64,000 nucleotides of DNA, from contig VAWN01000033.1 in assembly GCA_005885555.1 (NCBI GenBank), positions 1-64,000 of the forward strand. The letters are read 5' to 3'. The notes below the pieces were generated by a model. It was given only the letters and a program-made list of their open reading frames with translations. It had not been told where the DNA came from and made no database searches. This document shows, in pieces, positions 1 through 54,137 of this stretch. Source of the DNA: Actinomycetota bacterium. Its GTDB lineage: Bacteria; Actinomycetota; Actinomycetes; Mycobacteriales; Micromonosporaceae. Position numbers and translations under genes: made by a program. Numbering within the stretch: position 1 is the first letter of the stretch; each line of letters starts with the position of its first letter.

Positions 1-1355
<1,355 letters not shown>

Positions 1356-6002: not shown

Positions 6003-7205
6003 CTATTCTGCCAACCGCGCATCACGGGCGGCTGCGAGCTTGCTGGGCAGACCCCACAGCTCGACGAAACCCCGGGCGAGGGACTGGTCGAACATGTCGC
6101 CCTCGTCGTAGGTGGCCAGCCCGAAGTCGTACAGGCTGGCGTCGGAGCGCCGTCCGGTCACCGTCGCGCGGCCACCGTGCAGGGTCAGCCGTACCTCGCC
6201 GGAGACGTGCCGCTGGGTCTGCGCGATGAACGCGTCGAGGGCCTGCTTGAGCGGGGAGTACCACAGGCCGTCGTAGGTCAGCTCCGCCCAGCGCTGGTCG
6301 ACGGTGCGCTTGAACCGGGCCAGGTCCCGCTCGACGGTGACCGCTTCCAGCTCCTGGTGCGCGGTGATCAGCGTGATCGCGCCGGGGGCCTCGTACACTT
6401 CACGGCTCTTGATGCCGACCAGCCGGTCCTCGACCATGTCCAGCCGGCCCACACCCTGCGCGCCGGCCCGCCGGTTCAGCTCGGTGACCGCCTGGTACGG
6501 GGTGACCGTCTCGCCGTCGATCGCCACCGGCCGGCCGGCCGCGAAGGTGATGACGACCTCGTCGGGGTCGCGCGGTACGGACGGGTCGGCGGTGTAGCTG
6601 TACAGGTCCTCGATCGGCGCGTTCCAGATGTCCTCCAGGAACCCGGTCTCCACCGCCCGGCCCCAGACGTTCTGGTCGATCGAGTACGGCGACTTGTGCG
6701 TGACGTCGATCGGCAGGCCCTTCTCCTGCGCGTACCGGATCGCCTTGTCCCGCGTCCACGCGAAGTCCCGGGCCGGCGCGACGACCTTGAGGTGCGGGGC
6801 GAGCGCGGCGATGCCGGCCTCGAACCGGACCTGGTCGTTGCCCTTGCCGGTGCAGCCGTGCGAGACGATCGTGCCGCCGTGGGCGCGCGCCGCGGCCACC
6901 AGGTGCTTGACGATCAGCGGCCGGGACAGCGCCGACACCAGCGGGTACCGGTCCATGTAGAGCGCGTTGGCCTGGATCGCCGGCAGGCAGTACCCGTCGG
7001 CGAACTCCTCGCGCGCGTCGACCACCTCGGCCTGCACCGCGCCGCAGGCCAGTGCCCGCTTGCGGATGACCTCCAGATCCTCGCCGCCCTGCCCGACGTC
7101 GACGGCGACCGCGATCACCTCGGCGCCGGTCTGCTCGGCGAGGTACGGGATGGCCACGGAGGTGTCCAGGCCACCGGAGTATGCGAGAACAACCCGCTCG
7201 CTCAT
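6003..7205 (-). CDS. argG: argininosuccinate synthase
   Basis: ATP-dependent condensation of citrulline and aspartate, the penultimate arginine step. The 400-residue protein starts [16 protein letters not shown], with the ATP pyrophosphatase P-loop SGGLDTS at 10-16, the [15 protein letters not shown] segment near 110-125 and [12 protein letters not shown] near 172-183. The frame is open well upstream, but the ATG at 7203-7205 has a good ribosome-binding site (AAGGAG, 8 bases upstream). That site lies inside a 35-codon mini-ORF whose stop codon overlaps this ATG. argR lies 100 bases upstream, so argG may be translationally coupled through the mini-ORF. Confidence 0.97.
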
Positions 7206-7305
7206 GACTGTGTCTCCTTGGTCGCTACACGGGGCGCCTTGGTGCGCCGTATTCCTCGGACGCTTCGCGCGCGCGTCCAGACGGCGCCGCGCCCCGCTCC
7301 GCTGG

Positions 7306-7309
<4 letters not shown>
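7202..7309 (-). CDS. bridging mini-ORF between argR and argG (35 codons)
   Basis: The intergenic stretch between argR and argG is itself an open frame. Its ATG overlaps the argR stop (ATGA, 7306-7309) and its TGA overlaps the argG start (ATGA, 7202-7205). The predicted peptide is rich in Arg, Gly and Thr and contains AGRGAVWT...RS...IRRTKAPR, the same pattern as the mini-ORF at 31148-31249. It has no recognisable domain. It could be a real small protein, a translational relay that carries ribosomes from argR to argG, or simply a repeat inserted without breaking coupling. Expression is unproven. Confidence 0.4.
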
Positions 7310-9968
<2,659 letters not shown>

Positions 9969-9972
<4 letters not shown>

Positions 9973-30208: not shown

Positions 30209-31151
30209 GGGCGCAGAGCAGTCCGACGGCGGCGAGCACCTCGTCGACGGTGATCGCGTCCAGCGCCGGGTGCGGCGGGCGCCACCCGGTGCGCGGCGCC
30301 CGCCGGCCCGCGGTGTCGTACCGCTCCTCGTGCCACAGCACCCGGTGCCGGTCCCCGTCGAGCAGCGGCCCCCACCACGCCGGCGGGGTCGGCCCGAACA
30401 GCAGTACCGACGGGGTGCGGTACCCGGTGGCCAGGTGCGCGATCCCGGTGTCCCCGCAGATCACCAGCCGGGCGTGCGCGACGAGAGCGGCCAGTTCGCC
30501 CGCGTCGGTCTGCCCTGCGAGCACCGACCGGTCCGGCAGGCCGGCCCGGTCGGCGACCCGCCCGGCGAGCCAGCGTTCGGCCGGCGAGCCGGTCACCACC
30601 ACGTCGTGCCCGGTGGTCGTCAGGACTGTGGCCAGCTCCGCGAACCGGGCCGGCGGCCAGCGGCGGGCCGGGTCCTTGGCGCCCGGATGCACGATCGTCA
30701 CGCCCTCGGCGACCGGGCGGACCGCCGGCCGGTGCAGCAGCAGGTCGTTGGGCGAGGCGGCGATGCGGTACCAGTCGAGCATCCGGCACCACCGGTGCAC
30801 CTCGTGCTCGTCGACCGTCCACTGTGGACCGTCCGGGAAGCCGGCCGCCGGGCAGGCGAAGGCGAGCATGCGCTCGGGCCGGGTACCGGCGAGCAGCCGG
30901 TGCGACCGCGGTCCCCGGCCGTGCAGGTTGACCGCGAGCCGGGGCGGCGGCACCTCTATCCGCGGCACCTCGATCCCGTCCACCGGCAGCACCCGGTCGA
31001 CGGCGCCGGTCAGCCGGGCCAGCGGCGCCAGCCAGGCCGGTGCGGCCAGCACGATCTCCTCGGTCGGGCGGGCGGCCCGGATGCCGCGCAATACCGGTAC
31101 CGCGGTCGCCAGGTCCCCGATCCCGAGCGCCCGCAACACAAGGACACTCAC
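30189..31151 (-). CDS. glycosyltransferase family 9 (heptosyltransferase-like)
   Basis: 320-residue GT-B enzyme. The N-terminal VLVLRALGIGDLATAVPVLR (about 3-22) matches the acceptor-domain start of ADP-heptose:LPS heptosyltransferases. The C-terminal half has VTIVHPGAKDPARRWPP (donor site) and GDTGIAHLATGYRTPSVLLFGP. The start is GTG at 31149-31151, overlapping the stop of a bridging mini-ORF (GTGA). It is the last biosynthetic gene of the heptose cluster and is predicted to transfer a heptose-like sugar from ADP-heptose to an unknown cell-surface acceptor. Confidence 0.88.
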   Translation of the reverse strand: MSVLVLRALGIGDLATAVPVLRGIRAARPTEEIVLAAPAWLAPLARLTGAVDRVLPVDGIEVPRIEVPPPRLAVNLHGRGPRSHRLLAGTRPERMLAFACPAAGFPDGPQWTVDEHEVHRWCRMLDWYRIAASPNDLLLHRPAVRPVAEGVTIVHPGAKDPARRWPPARFAELATVLTTTGHDVVVTGSPAERWLAGRVADRAGLPDRSVLAGQTDAGELAALVAHARLVICGDTGIAHLATGYRTPSVLLFGPTPPAWWGPLLDGDRHRVLWHEERYDTAGRRAPRTGWRPPHPALDAITVDEVLAAVGLLCAHAAAPQ

Positions 31152-31249
31152 AGAGCCTCCCGGTTCGTTCCGCGGCGCGCTCTGGTGCGCCGCCTTCCCT
31201 CCTCGCTGCGCTCGTCAGTCCAGGCCCCGCCGCGCCCCGCTGCACTCAC
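31148..31249 (-). CDS. bridging mini-ORF between SDR and GT9 genes (33 codons)
   Basis: A GTG overlaps the SDR stop (GTGA, 31246-31249) and the TGA overlaps the GTG of the GT9 gene (GTGA, 31148-31151). The peptide contains AAGRGGAWTDERSEEGRRRT, which aligns with the mini-ORF at 7202-7309 (AGRG..WT..RS..G.RRT). The two DNA segments also align without gaps over about 60 bases (GGTGCGCCG ... GTCCAG ... GCCGCGCCCCGCT on the plus strand). It is highly charged, with no domain. Expression is unproven. Confidence 0.4.
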   Translation of the reverse strand: MSAAGRGGAWTDERSEEGRRRTRARRGTNREAL

Positions 31250-33344: not shown

Positions 33345-33931
33345 GACACCATCGCCTCCGCCACGAGCACCGCCGGCAGGTGCACGTCGACGTACTCGCA
33401 CAGCAGGTGCGCGGCGACCAGATGCAGCTCCTGGACGACCTGGGCCTGCGGCGACGGTACCGCGACGACCTCGGCGCAGCGGGCGGCCAGCGGGTTGGGC
33501 ACCGGGCCGGTGAACCCCCAGACGTGCAGGCCGCACTCGGTACCGGTGGCGGCGGCCGCGATCAGGTTGGCGCTGCGGCCGCTGGTCGACATCAGGAGCA
33601 GCACGTCACCGGGTCGGCCGTGCGCGCGCACCTGGCGGGCGTACACCTCGGTGTAGCCGAAGTCGTTGGCGATCGCGGTACCGCTGCTGGTCTCCGCGTG
33701 CAGCGCCAGCGCGGACAGCGGGGTGCGGTCCTCGCGCAGCTTGCCGACCAGCTCGGCGGTCAGGTGCTGGGCCTCGGCCGCGCTCCCGCCGTTGCCGGCG
33801 ACCAGCAGCCGCCCGCCCCGGCCGAGGACGCCGGCCAGCTTCTCGCCGAGCCGGGGCAGCTCGACGGCCACCTCCCGGAACGGCATCAGCGCATCCGCGA
33901 GCGCGGTCAGGTGCTCGTCGACGAGTCTCAC
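33341..33931 (-). CDS. gmhA: D-sedoheptulose-7-phosphate isomerase (SIS domain)
   Basis: 196-residue SIS-fold isomerase, first committed step to heptose. LLVAGNGGSAAEAQHLTAEL is near 42-61, LALHAETSSGTAIANDFGY near 75-93, and the phosphate-binding LLLMSTSGRSANL near 110-122. The C-terminal metal/His region is VVQELHLVAAHLLCEYVD. The start is GTG at 33929-33931 with GAGGAG eight bases upstream. The GTG overlaps the stop of a 19-codon mini-ORF. It is fully consistent with GmhA. Confidence 0.92.
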   Translation of the reverse strand: MRLVDEHLTALADALMPFREVAVELPRLGEKLAGVLGRGGRLLVAGNGGSAAEAQHLTAELVGKLREDRTPLSALALHAETSSGTAIANDFGYTEVYARQVRAHGRPGDVLLLMSTSGRSANLIAAAATGTECGLHVWGFTGPVPNPLAARCAEVVAVPSPQAQVVQELHLVAAHLLCEYVDVHLPAVLVAEAMVS

Positions 33932-33987
33932 GCGGTCATCTCCTCGCCCGCTCCGTGGGGCGCTCCGGTGCGCCCCACGCCGTTCAT
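33928..33987 (-). other. bridging mini-ORF between GT4 and gmhA genes (19 codons)
   Basis: The ATG overlaps the stop of the GT4 gene (ATGA, 33984-33987) and the TGA overlaps the gmhA GTG (GTGA, 33928-33931). The DNA includes GTGGGGCGC / GCGCCCCAC inverted arms (about 33955-33978), related to the hairpins inside the other two longer mini-ORFs. The peptide contains RTGAPHGAGEEM, and gmhA's ribosome-binding site lies within it. Confidence 0.35.
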
Positions 33988-43157: not shown

Positions 43158-45044
43158 ATGGTGACCGTCCCAGACCCCCAGTTCGAGTTGCTGCTGGCGC
43201 ACCTGAAGGAGGCGCGCGGCTTCGACTTCACCGGGTACAAGCGTTCCAGTCTCGGCCGGCGGGTGAACCGGCGGATGAGCCAGGTCGGCGTCAGCGGCTA
43301 CGGCGACTACCTCGACTACCTCGAGGTACACCCGGAGGAGTTCACCGCGCTGTTCAACACCGTGCTCATCAACGTGACCAGCTTCTTCCGTGACCCGGAC
43401 GCCTGGAACTACCTGGGCGACGAGGTGCTGCCGCAGCTGCTCGCCGCCAAGGAGGTCAACTCCCCGATCCGGGTCTGGAGCGCCGGCTGCGCCTCCGGTG
43501 AGGAGGCGTACTCGCTGGCCATGCTGTTCGCCGAGATCCTCGGGCCGGACGAGTTCCGCGACCGCGTCAAGGTGTACGCCACCGACGTCGACGAGGAGCA
43601 ACTGGCCGAGGCCCGCCAGGCGACCTACCCGGAGGAGTCGCTGTCGGCGCTGTCCCCCGAGCGCAAGGAACGGTTCTTCGAGCATTTCGCCGGCCGGTAC
43701 GTCTTCCGCAAGGACCTGCGCCGCACGGTCATCTTCGGCCGCAACGACCTGGTACAGGACTCGCCGATCTCCCGGGTCGACCTGCTGCTGTGCCGCAACA
43801 CGCTGATGTACTTCAACGCCGAGACCCAGGCGCGCATCCTGTCGCGGTTCCACTTCGCGCTGGCCGGCGGCGGGGTGCTGTTCCTCGGCAAGGCGGAGAT
43901 GCTGCTCAGCCACAGCAACCTCTTCCTGCCCATCGACCTCAAGCGGCGGATCTTCCGCAAGGTGCCGCAGCGGTTACCGGCACCGGTCACGTTCCTGCCC
44001 GATCCGCCCGACACGCCGGTACACCGCGAGCTGGTGGGCCTGGATCGGCTGCGCAACGAGGCGTTCCTGGCCACCCCCGTGGCGCAGATCGTGGTGACCT
44101 CCGACGGGCTGGTCGCGCTGACCAGCCGCCAGGCGGAGACCATGTTCGGTGTCTCGTCGCGCGACGTCGGCCGCCCGTTCCGCGACCTCGACGTCTCGTA
44201 CCGGCCGGCCGAGCTGCGCCGCTACATCGAGCAGGCGCAGCTGGAGCGCCGGGTCGCCCGGATCACCGACGTCGAGTACCCCCGCGGCGGCGATACGGCA
44301 TACCTTGAGGTACACGTCAACCCGCTGGTGGACACCGACGGCAGCCTGCTCGGGGTGGCCCTCGTCTTCCACGACGTGACCGCGGCGCGGCGCATGCAGG
44401 AGGATCTGGAGCAGGCCAACCACCAGCTGGAGGACGCCTACGAGGAACTGCAGTCCACCAACGAGGAACTGGAGACCACCAACGAGGAACTGCAGTCCAC
44501 GGTGGAGGAACTGGAGACCACCAACGAGGAGCTCCAGTCCACCAACGAGGAACTGGAGACCATGAACGAGGAGCTCCAGTCCACCAATGACGAGCTGCAG
44601 AACATCAACGACGAGCTGCGCGACCGCTCCCGCGAGCTGTCCGCCGCCGAGATGTTCCTCGACGCCGTGCTGACCAGCCTGCGGGCCGGCGTCACGGTGG
44701 TGAACAAGGAGCTGGACATCCAGGTGTGGAACCGGCAGGCCGAGGACCTGTGGGGGCTGCGTCGCGAGGAGGTCATCGGGCAGCGGTTCCTCAGCCTGGA
44801 CATCGGGCTGCCCACCGACGAGCTGTGGCCGCTGATCCGCCGGGCGCTCGTCGGCGAGGGACCGCAGCAGACCCAGCTGGCCGCGGTGAACCGGCGCGGC
44901 CGGTCGATCGTGGTCCGCGTCGTGTGCACGCCGCTGCTCAGCGACGGGGCGCAGCCGACCGGGGCGATCCTCGTGATGGAGCAGGCCGAGGCCGGGGAGC
45001 AGCGGTCCGGGGACGGCGGAGAGACGCGCACCACACCGGCATGA
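43158..45044 (+). CDS. CheR methyltransferase - coiled coil - PAS protein
   Basis: 628 residues. The CheR N-domain and SAM domain span about 1-275 (VWSAGCASGEEAYSLAMLFAEI near 108-129, DLLLCRNTLMYF near 208-219). A PAS domain lies at about 290-410, a long coiled coil at 410-495 with repeated ELQSTNEELE units, and a second PAS at about 500-610. There is no histidine kinase domain. In relatives, CheB-CheR-PAS units are often fused to one. The start could be ATG at 43158 or GTG at 43161; the GTG has better spacing to GGAGG. It follows cheB by 47 bases. Confidence 0.87.
   Translation: MVTVPDPQFELLLAHLKEARGFDFTGYKRSSLGRRVNRRMSQVGVSGYGDYLDYLEVHPEEFTALFNTVLINVTSFFRDPDAWNYLGDEVLPQLLAAKEVNSPIRVWSAGCASGEEAYSLAMLFAEILGPDEFRDRVKVYATDVDEEQLAEARQATYPEESLSALSPERKERFFEHFAGRYVFRKDLRRTVIFGRNDLVQDSPISRVDLLLCRNTLMYFNAETQARILSRFHFALAGGGVLFLGKAEMLLSHSNLFLPIDLKRRIFRKVPQRLPAPVTFLPDPPDTPVHRELVGLDRLRNEAFLATPVAQIVVTSDGLVALTSRQAETMFGVSSRDVGRPFRDLDVSYRPAELRRYIEQAQLERRVARITDVEYPRGGDTAYLEVHVNPLVDTDGSLLGVALVFHDVTAARRMQEDLEQANHQLEDAYEELQSTNEELETTNEELQSTVEELETTNEELQSTNEELETMNEELQSTNDELQNINDELRDRSRELSAAEMFLDAVLTSLRAGVTVVNKELDIQVWNRQAEDLWGLRREEVIGQRFLSLDIGLPTDELWPLIRRALVGEGPQQTQLAAVNRRGRSIVVRVVCTPLLSDGAQPTGAILVMEQAEAGEQRSGDGGETRTTPA
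44442..44609 (+). repeat. 21-bp tandem units encoding the coiled-coil heptads
   Basis: Eight consecutive 21-base units of the type GAGGAACTGCAGTCCACCAA / GAGGAACTGGAGACCACCAA, each with one more base (C or T), encode seven-residue heptads EELQSTN / EELETTN. They alternate in two forms and diverge toward the 3' end (GACGAGCTGCAGAACATCAA). Copy number could vary by slippage, which would lengthen the coil in heptad steps. Confidence 0.85.
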
Positions 45045-45066
45045 GTACCGGCCCGGTGGGTACCTT

Positions 45067-45108
45067 TCCCCCAACGACGTGAGCGAGTCCCCCAACGACG
45101 TGAGCGAG
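45067..45108 (+). repeat. perfect 21-bp tandem duplication with chained mini-ORFs
   Basis: TCCCCCAACGACGTGAGCGA plus one G occurs twice back to back. A 13-codon frame starts on the CheR stop (ATGA, 45041) and ends at 45082. A 17-codon frame starts on that stop (GTGA, 45079) and ends with TAG at 45132. The 141-base gap up to the SRPBCC gene holds nothing else. Confidence 0.7.
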
Positions 45109-45185
45109 GCGCTGGCCGGGTCCGGACGGTAGTCCGGGCAGCGTCCGGTTTGTCCGTCGACCGCACACGAAAGGAGACCACCACG

Positions 45186-53714: not shown

Positions 53715-53931
53715 CCCCGCAGTCTCCGCCGGCCTGCTCGTCGACCCGGCTCGCTGCCGCTCGCCGTCCCGACGAGACACGATAGGGCTGCGACCATGGT
53801 TCGCTCGCTGGCGCTCGCTCACCGCCTGCCCCTCTCGTCGCGCGGTGCGCGCCGACGGAGGAGCAGCGGAACGGGCGGCCAGCCGGCGAACGCCGACGGC
53901 CAGCCCTCGACACCGATACCGGTGCCGCCCG

Positions 53932-54077
53932 CGCGCTGTCTCCCATCCGGACTTTGACCGTCGGCCCCGGATTCTCACCAGGTCCACCGTCCGACACGAG
54001 GTCGGCCGGGTCGCGGGCTTACCAGGTCGTCCCTGGATCACCGCCGGTTCGGAATTTCACCGAGTCCCGCCAGCGCG
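53932..54077 (-). promoter_or_regulatory. FMN riboswitch (RFN element) of the rib operon
   Basis: The minus strand contains the RFN core: GGTGAAATTCCGAACCGGCG, then CCTGGTAAGCCCGCGA, GGTGAGAATCCGGGGCCGA and AGTCCGGATGGGAGA. The closing P1 stem is CGCGCTG (54071-54077) with CAGCGCG (53932-53938). FMN binding should lower rib expression. The 217 bases to ribD (53715-53931) have no T-rich terminator. They contain CTGCTCCTCC (near 53865), an anti-ribosome-binding sequence that could act by translation control. 54078-54137 holds a CGGCGG/CCGCCG stem and no gene. Confidence 0.93.
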
Positions 54078-54137
54078 TGGTGGGTTCTCTGAAGTGTCGC
54101 ACGGTCCGGCGGTTCCCGCCGACCCCGGCGAGCTACC

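Follow-up and report, generated by a model that had tools for sequence, protein, structure and literature searches.

Results

A frame with overlaps at both ends fills the argR-argG joint

We analyzed a window (the whole stretch of DNA, 64,000 nucleotides, at the start of contig VAWN01000033.1) from a Micromonosporaceae genome of 6.7 Mb in 197 contigs. The following features lie at the joint.

7306..7824, minus strand: upstream gene, which we take from the earlier note and the sequence to be argR
7202..7309, minus strand: relay frame of 35 codons plus TGA, with ATGA overlaps on both sides
7207..7306, minus strand: class A repeat element, matched by covariance model R1 at 83.4 bits
7214..7218, minus strand: AGGAG, a Shine-Dalgarno-like motif that is part of the element, 8 bases ahead of the argG ATG
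6003..7205, minus strand: downstream gene, argG (name from the earlier note)

Read on the minus strand from 7309 to 7202, the sequence is ATGACCAGCGGAGCGGGG...CACAGTCATGA. The ATGA at 7306-7309 contains the argR stop (TGA, 7308-7306), and the ATGA at 7202-7205 contains both the stop of the relay frame (TGA, 7204-7202) and the argG start (ATG, 7205-7203). This arrangement confirms the earlier description of a 35-codon frame that spans the argR-argG gap and shares a 4-bp ATGA with each neighboring gene. The hairpin tip of this copy (7207-7306) is altered (GCGCGAAGCG), as it is in copies on contigs C19, C149, and C75, and with its diverged tip the copy lacks the canonical core.

The earlier note had placed four other sites of the window in one set with this frame. 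We found that the set comprises three different things: class A copies, which belong together, a link from another family, and frames unrelated to the repeat. Three of the four sites are genuine links.

31148..31249, minus strand: another complete copy, with a 33-codon relay frame from GTGA to GTGA, R1 94.5 bits
33928..33987, minus strand: shortened copy, ATGA to GTGA, 60 nt, 19-codon relay frame
9943..9972, minus strand: argB-argD link, ATGA to GTGA, 30 nt, 9 codons

At 31148-31249, between genes that presumably encode an SDR-like and a glycosyltransferase-9-like protein, the same peptide pattern does recur, with GTGA overlaps at both ends. The site at 33928-33987, described earlier as a related shorter bridge, is an abridged copy of the same element in which the core is deleted and the outer arms are retained (R1 27.2 bits; E 1e-4 within the window). 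The link at 9943-9972 is real as well, and its sequence is that of another relay family in this genome. We rejected the remaining site, two chained short frames after a CheR-like gene (45041-45132), as a repeat copy. The second of these frames runs into TAG, which leaves 53 bases to the next ATG. The best R1 match near the CheR end (44973-45066) is at chance level (12.6 bits, E 0.49), and thus the frames are not members of the family. They contain a 20-bp direct repeat.

The element is one copy of a large repeat family

A blastn search with the 108-base founding sequence gave 49 matches in its own genome (E ≤ 10). We built the covariance model R1 from 28 copies and found at least 103 matches in the same genome at E ≤ 1, of which 93 reached E ≤ 4e-4, with a unit of ~100 bp. 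This count is a lower bound because 150 of the 15,109 first-look candidates were scored. The core pattern with ≤2 mismatches matched 76 times, versus 0 for the reversed pattern. The DNA pattern, for which the earlier note had proposed a genome search, therefore recurs above chance.

We left the 8 weakest of the 103 R1 matches (E 0.07 to 0.58) out of all class counts and analyzed 95 copies, which form 81 arrays, 13 of them tandem. A script assigned the copies to class A (62 copies, xTGAGCGCAGCGGGGCGC...GGGAGGCACxGTGA), class B (19 copies, cTGAGGGAGCGAG...GGACGGGGC), class C (10 copies), and class D (4 copies, with an insert in the loop); class A is the default bin and includes some B- or C-like copies. 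Flanking genes were called from codon-position composition. By flank orientation, class A copies were distributed as ++ 49, -+ 7, +- 6, and -- 0, and class A arrays as ++ 43, +- 6, -+ 4, and -- 0, so that between co-directional genes class A is always in the sense orientation (43 versus 0). The class B and C arrays (n = 25) were ++ 10, +- 7, -+ 3, and -- 5. Judging from protein ends, many class A arrays sit at joints that we take to be those of core operons, namely, ruvA-ruvB, murG-murC, gap-pgk, rplM-rpsI, and pdxS-pdxT; further joints are presumably transaldolase-glucose-6-phosphate isomerase and the regions upstream of aroQ and of hemH. In two copies (L122 at C75:13949 and L095 at C167:57981), a ~45-base palindromic insert is nested in the repeat, and in the first of these the frame is open through the insert (147 nt).

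Class A copies link the upstream stop to the downstream start

We found that in 32 of the 43 co-directional class A arrays, tandem chains counted, the upstream stop is joined to the downstream start via (A/G)TGA overlaps. The same was true of 1 of 3 class D arrays and of none of the 25 class B and C arrays, 10 of which are co-directional. Among the 66 class A and D copies, 54 start with xTGA, and the frame test left out the other 12. In 38 of the 54, that TGA is the stop of the upstream gene. Also in 38, the frame opened by xTG reaches its stop at an (A/G)TGA that is in phase with the downstream gene, and 28 copies have both properties. A Shine-Dalgarno-like motif precedes the downstream start in 28 of 34 relay-scored arrays. 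One relay call within these counts of 34 (C121:6129, class A) is spurious, as its downstream gene is on the other strand, and another array (C178:29788) was scored as a relay solely via two additional short links.

Relay frames were 60, 63, 96, 99, 102, 105, 108, 111, 123, 126, 153, 201, or 294 nt long, and some arrays relay via strings of full-length and shorter links. Phase was thus retained after deletions (60 and 63 nt), after an insertion (126 nt), and through tandem growth (153, 201, and 294 nt). The 147-nt copy with the nested insert also terminates on an ATGA, a candidate link. In one copy (C159:35408), an internal frameshift has removed the peptide and both gene overlaps are intact. 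The 11 nonrelay arrays of the co-directional class A set (for example, C178:93227 and C53:19847) are degenerate, have lost the TGA, or are fused in frame with the downstream gene.

An empty site and a worn duplication point to insertion

In a same-genus genome that is 77% complete (G001), ruvA and ruvB meet in a bare ATGA overlap with no element. In the genome analyzed here, this joint is ACCCGATGAGCG-element-ACCCGATGAGCG, and the protein ends match those of G001 by eye. This is the only joint seen empty within the genus. Among relatives, a -4 candidate was found at 12/21 ruvA-ruvB loci, at one of them together with other candidates; at gap-pgk, a -4 candidate was found at 5/23 loci and a -1 candidate at 5 more. 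The first 80 residues of argG had matches in 17/25 relatives, and a -4 candidate was found at 6/17 argR-argG loci. Because the empty state of argR-argG varies among relatives, the empty-site evidence for insertion comes from ruvA-ruvB, and an insertion at argR-argG itself is presumed. In a genome of another genus (G003, L179), the argR-argG joint holds a different GC-rich insert of ~70 bases ending in GGCATGA.

We compared the bases preceding the two xTGA motifs in the 34 relay-scored arrays. Base -1 was identical in 22/34 (9.8 after shuffling) and base -2 in 21/34 (11.5 after shuffling); beyond -2, agreement was weak or at chance. We interpret the agreement at -1 and -2 as a worn target-site duplication. 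The repeat is probably mobile.

The core occurs in other genera, and other families share the architecture

The core (≤2 mismatches) was found in 6/354 genomes of the same family, with 0 for the reversed control, and only in G000 among 396 genomes sampled across the phylum. The exact core pattern was present in 42 stretches from Virgisporangium, one Micromonospora, Acrocarpospora, Herbidospora, Actinomadura, Kribbella, and Streptosporangiaceae metagenome-assembled genomes (MAGs). Viral contigs gave 0 exact matches. From the core positions of G359 and G334, which agree with those of named records, Virgisporangium and Micromonospora sp. CPCC 205371 apparently belong to the same family as the genome analyzed here, and Virgisporangium is placed in Micromonosporaceae. 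Three loci of genome G010 (L128, L130, and L131) were left out of the analysis.

With no coding threshold, 17 of 43 cores in other genera had a relay frame. An Actinomadura locus (L169) and a MAG (L151) have the same relay frame as here (WTEERSDEG). A different frame (GLRS.ATRE) was found in Virgisporangium (L147, L149, L150, and L155, with longer frames in L152 and L156) and in a MAG (L135). At 7 of 8 Kribbella loci, the relay is on the opposite strand (..LLSP.REAP), with an upstream flank that is not coding-like in 4 of the 7. No relay was found in the Acrocarpospora and Herbidospora copies. When both flanks were required to be coding, the relay was present at 9/43 cores (including Kribbella L145, L158, and L160) versus 20/8,400 random stretches, a contrast that partly reflects where the element lies because the random stretches were not matched gene joints. 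In four Herbidospora species (L133, L166, L167, and L173), the core is part of a conserved leader that immediately precedes what is apparently the same gene, where it looks recruited as a cis element.

Two further families, judged by their overlaps, have the same relay architecture. One is in the genome analyzed here (ATGAsCGAGCGNAGCGAG..., mostly 78 to 84 nt; 18 pattern matches versus 0 reversed). At 8 of 12 sites examined, including a short form at argB-argD (9943-9972), it links coding flanks directly via ATGA or GTGA overlaps. Its members (9943-9972, L269 to L272, L274, L275, and L279) usually have two GCGNAGC tips, with other sequence outside the tips. The other family is a 59-bp repeat of unlike sequence, often tandem, in another genus of the same family (G004, L280 to L299; 44 matches). 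It relays from gene to gene, GTGA to GTGA, in 5 of 8 arrays examined.

The frame is kept open, and the peptide is not conserved

The recurrence of a peptide, AGRG..WT.ERS.EGRRRT, in most full-length open-frame class A copies of this genome raises the question of whether these are genuine small proteins encoded between operon genes, as the earlier note had offered as one of its two readings. We compared 45 distinct ungapped class A copies (of 62 copies, 12 gapped and 5 identical ones were left out). Over the first 84 bases, 1/45 had an in-frame stop (C149:28357, which lacks xTGA and does not relay). When the same changes were placed at random, 6.2 such copies were expected, and 3 of 400 simulations were as low as the observed 1. 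Differences by codon position 1, 2, and 3 numbered 104, 175, and 169 (146, 149, and 153 expected), with first positions spared. In contrast to this depletion of stops, the synonymous share of changed codons was 0.249 versus 0.252 at random, and thus no selection on the amino acid sequence was detected among class A copies. Because the copies share ancestry, both tests overstate independence, and the stop result is modest. The repeat therefore appears to be one whose open frame is preserved and whose amino acid sequence is not conserved.

Further observations argue against the small-protein reading. The internally frameshifted copy at C159:35408 retains relay phase without the peptide, certain tandem copies merge into longer frames, and the relays of Virgisporangium and Kribbella read the same DNA core in another frame and on the antisense strand, respectively. 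We consider a family of unannotated small proteins very unlikely. The earlier note had itself proposed that stops, frameshifts, or insertion in either orientation would count against a coding role; this refutation applies to classes B and C, which have the core but occur in every orientation without a relay, and to the 11/43 co-directional class A arrays that do not relay. Its other reading, that the repeats have been selected to maintain the flow of ribosomes from one operon gene to the next, has good sequence support in the empty site, the overlaps, the orientation, and the depletion of stops.

The core fits a covarying hairpin

We assembled 76 copies from this genome (≤3 mismatches) and 43 from other genera, which after removal of duplicates gave 103 distinct copies; 19 of the 95 copies of this genome, including the founding copy, were too far from the core pattern to be in the set. 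The core is consistent with a rod in which three G-A steps lie in tandem, with every pair kept in 100 to 103 of the 103, together with a covarying pair (GC 73, CG 29, CC 1) and a GNA loop (GCGNAGC). Conservation of the core is partly by construction because copies were selected by the core pattern, which does not apply to the covariation. The flanking arms pair in 568/618 cells versus 460 when shuffled. In 26 divergent copies, we counted 41 double-change cells; shuffling gave 10.3, and slid controls gave no more than 12. Folding with DNA parameters showed no excess stability for the core, three MIRU (mycobacterial interspersed repetitive unit) stretches, or the elements of two relatives; the hairpin thus rests on covariation and not on energy. 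We infer that the core tip matters as single-stranded DNA or RNA.

A covarying hairpin would also be expected of a structured RNA, or of a processing or terminator hairpin in operons, with a frame that is open merely through GC-richness. Six copies have RNA minimum free energies of -45 to -55 kcal/mol, classes B and C have the core without the relay, and a rough estimate indicates that an open 33-codon frame by itself is not rare at the given GC. However, the frame must meet two overlaps simultaneously, which it does in 32/43 arrays here and at 9/43 cores versus 20/8,400 unmatched random stretches in other genomes, and its stops are depleted. In addition, the energy z-scores of the six copies are modest (-1.0 to -3.2), and no Rfam family matched the element: a search of 12 loci at E ≤ 10 gave six weak matches, all below the gathering score and none on the element. 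A structured RNA that carries its frame by chance therefore seems improbable to us. At the gathering threshold, Rfam found in the window a partial 16S rRNA at its edge (1-1354, minus strand) and an FMN riboswitch (53931-54078, minus strand) and nothing else.

REP/REPIN sequences with RAYT are non-autonomous hairpin elements of high copy number. The element described here resembles them in being an apparently non-autonomous hairpin, imperfect, with many copies, some of them tandem, and a patchy distribution, and it could in principle be a palindrome of this type moved by a Y1 (RAYT) transposase. Unlike REP/REPIN, however, class A has a fixed orientation and carries a relay frame. We also found no Y1 transposase (PF01797) in 15 genomes, 6 of them with the core; the same search was positive in 5/14 control genomes. 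We give this explanation hardly any credence.

The element resembles the MIRUs of mycobacteria

MIRUs were reportedly described by Supply et al. in 1997 and are said there to be without dyad symmetry. We picked MIRU loci with a MIRU motif (≤3 mismatches), which was present in 163/346 genomes of one genus. Tandem spacing was 53 bp in 7 of 20 loci and 50 bp in one. At 15/20, an (A/G)TGA-to-(A/G)TGA frame spans the unit and one or both flanks are coding, and at three loci there is also, or solely, a reverse frame. According to a review that cites Supply et al., MIRUs insert at start codons with an internal open reading frame coupled at -4 (PMC12548453), and 53 bp is given as a MIRU size (PMC4213456).

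The element described here is similarly a short, interspersed, often tandem repeat between genes (at least 103 R1 matches; 13/81 arrays tandem), with an internal frame in sense orientation that overlaps both neighbors by 4 bp (32/43 co-directional class A arrays; antisense, 0). The cores are also alike, over just ~20 to 30 nt: the MIRU frame reads DDAERSDEEERR versus TEERSDEGRRR here, with ERSDE in common. On 18 of the 20 MIRU loci, model R2 matched the unit in 17 (best per locus, 15.4 to 22.1 bits; E 0.004 to 0.36) and gave no match in one, the loci having been preselected by a motif that contains the matched stretch; 18 control loci gave two matches (15.0 and 10.6 bits). Because of how the loci were chosen, this statistical link is biased, and it is weak.

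The two differ in several respects. The element here is ~100 bp with long pairing outer arms, whereas the MIRU unit is 53 bp, and it forms a long covarying hairpin, whereas three MIRU stretches were without excess folding stability (DNA parameters). It is found in Micromonosporaceae and other families, and its core also occurs in nonrelay subclasses and, in Kribbella, on the opposite strand. Judged from sequence, the element functions like a MIRU and resembles the MIRU core, and common descent is plausible. Enterobacterial RU-1/2/3, as described in PMC2759123, are small mobile sequences of ~100 to 170 bp and are likewise repeats with open frames; in contrast to the frame here, which lies between genes with -4 overlaps, RU frames lie within annotated genes.

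Discussion

Because the peptide is not conserved and the core still relays in other frames and on the other strand, the frame at the argR-argG joint does not appear to belong to a small-protein family and is probably part of a mobile, MIRU-like repeat. The MIRU kind is already known from mycobacteria; the repeat described here appears to be one in a nonmycobacterial actinomycete lineage. Among the literature matches listed, there was no report of such repeats outside mycobacteria, and the accessible part of PMC4255298 contained nothing relevant to them.

We think it likely that the element is a nonautonomous mobile repeat of ~100 bp that inserts at (A/G)TGA joints and relays ribosomes through a throw-away frame. 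According to this model, the element would insert beside the TGA in the (A/G)TGA start/stop overlaps of cotranslated genes and duplicate a few bases of the site, and its DNA or RNA would fold into a long hairpin. Three features would come with it: an open frame of ~33 codons that begins in an overlap with the upstream stop, a Shine-Dalgarno-like motif toward the right end of the element, and an (A/G)TGA at which the stop of that frame overlaps the downstream start. Ribosomes finishing the first gene would reinitiate on the relay frame, traverse the hairpin, and reinitiate on the second gene. Insertion would therefore be nearly silent, even in essential operons, and the peptide would be a by-product. 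The relay frame would thus be translated, and the element may still be moving. The hairpin could serve as the mobility signal, and a putative enzyme would mobilize the element.

A broader possibility, to which we give even chances, is that MIRUs represent one branch of a class of mobile "ribosome-relay" repeats found throughout the Actinomycetota. The frame and (A/G)TGA ends, which make insertion at operon joints silent, would have arisen separately in several lineages, not all of them related in sequence. A common hairpin tip (tandem G-A steps around GCGNAGC) would have been put to use again in various frames and on either strand, and an undiscovered mobilizing enzyme would recognize it.

These observations suggest that mobile DNA can colonize operon joints, often those of core genes, with translational coupling intact. 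They set apart two selections that may act on one short sequence, one for an open in-phase frame and one for a folded core. Relay frames of this kind could easily be mistaken for small proteins. The repeats would offer a natural collection of relay insertions for the study of termination-reinitiation, and they point to a putative system that mobilizes them.
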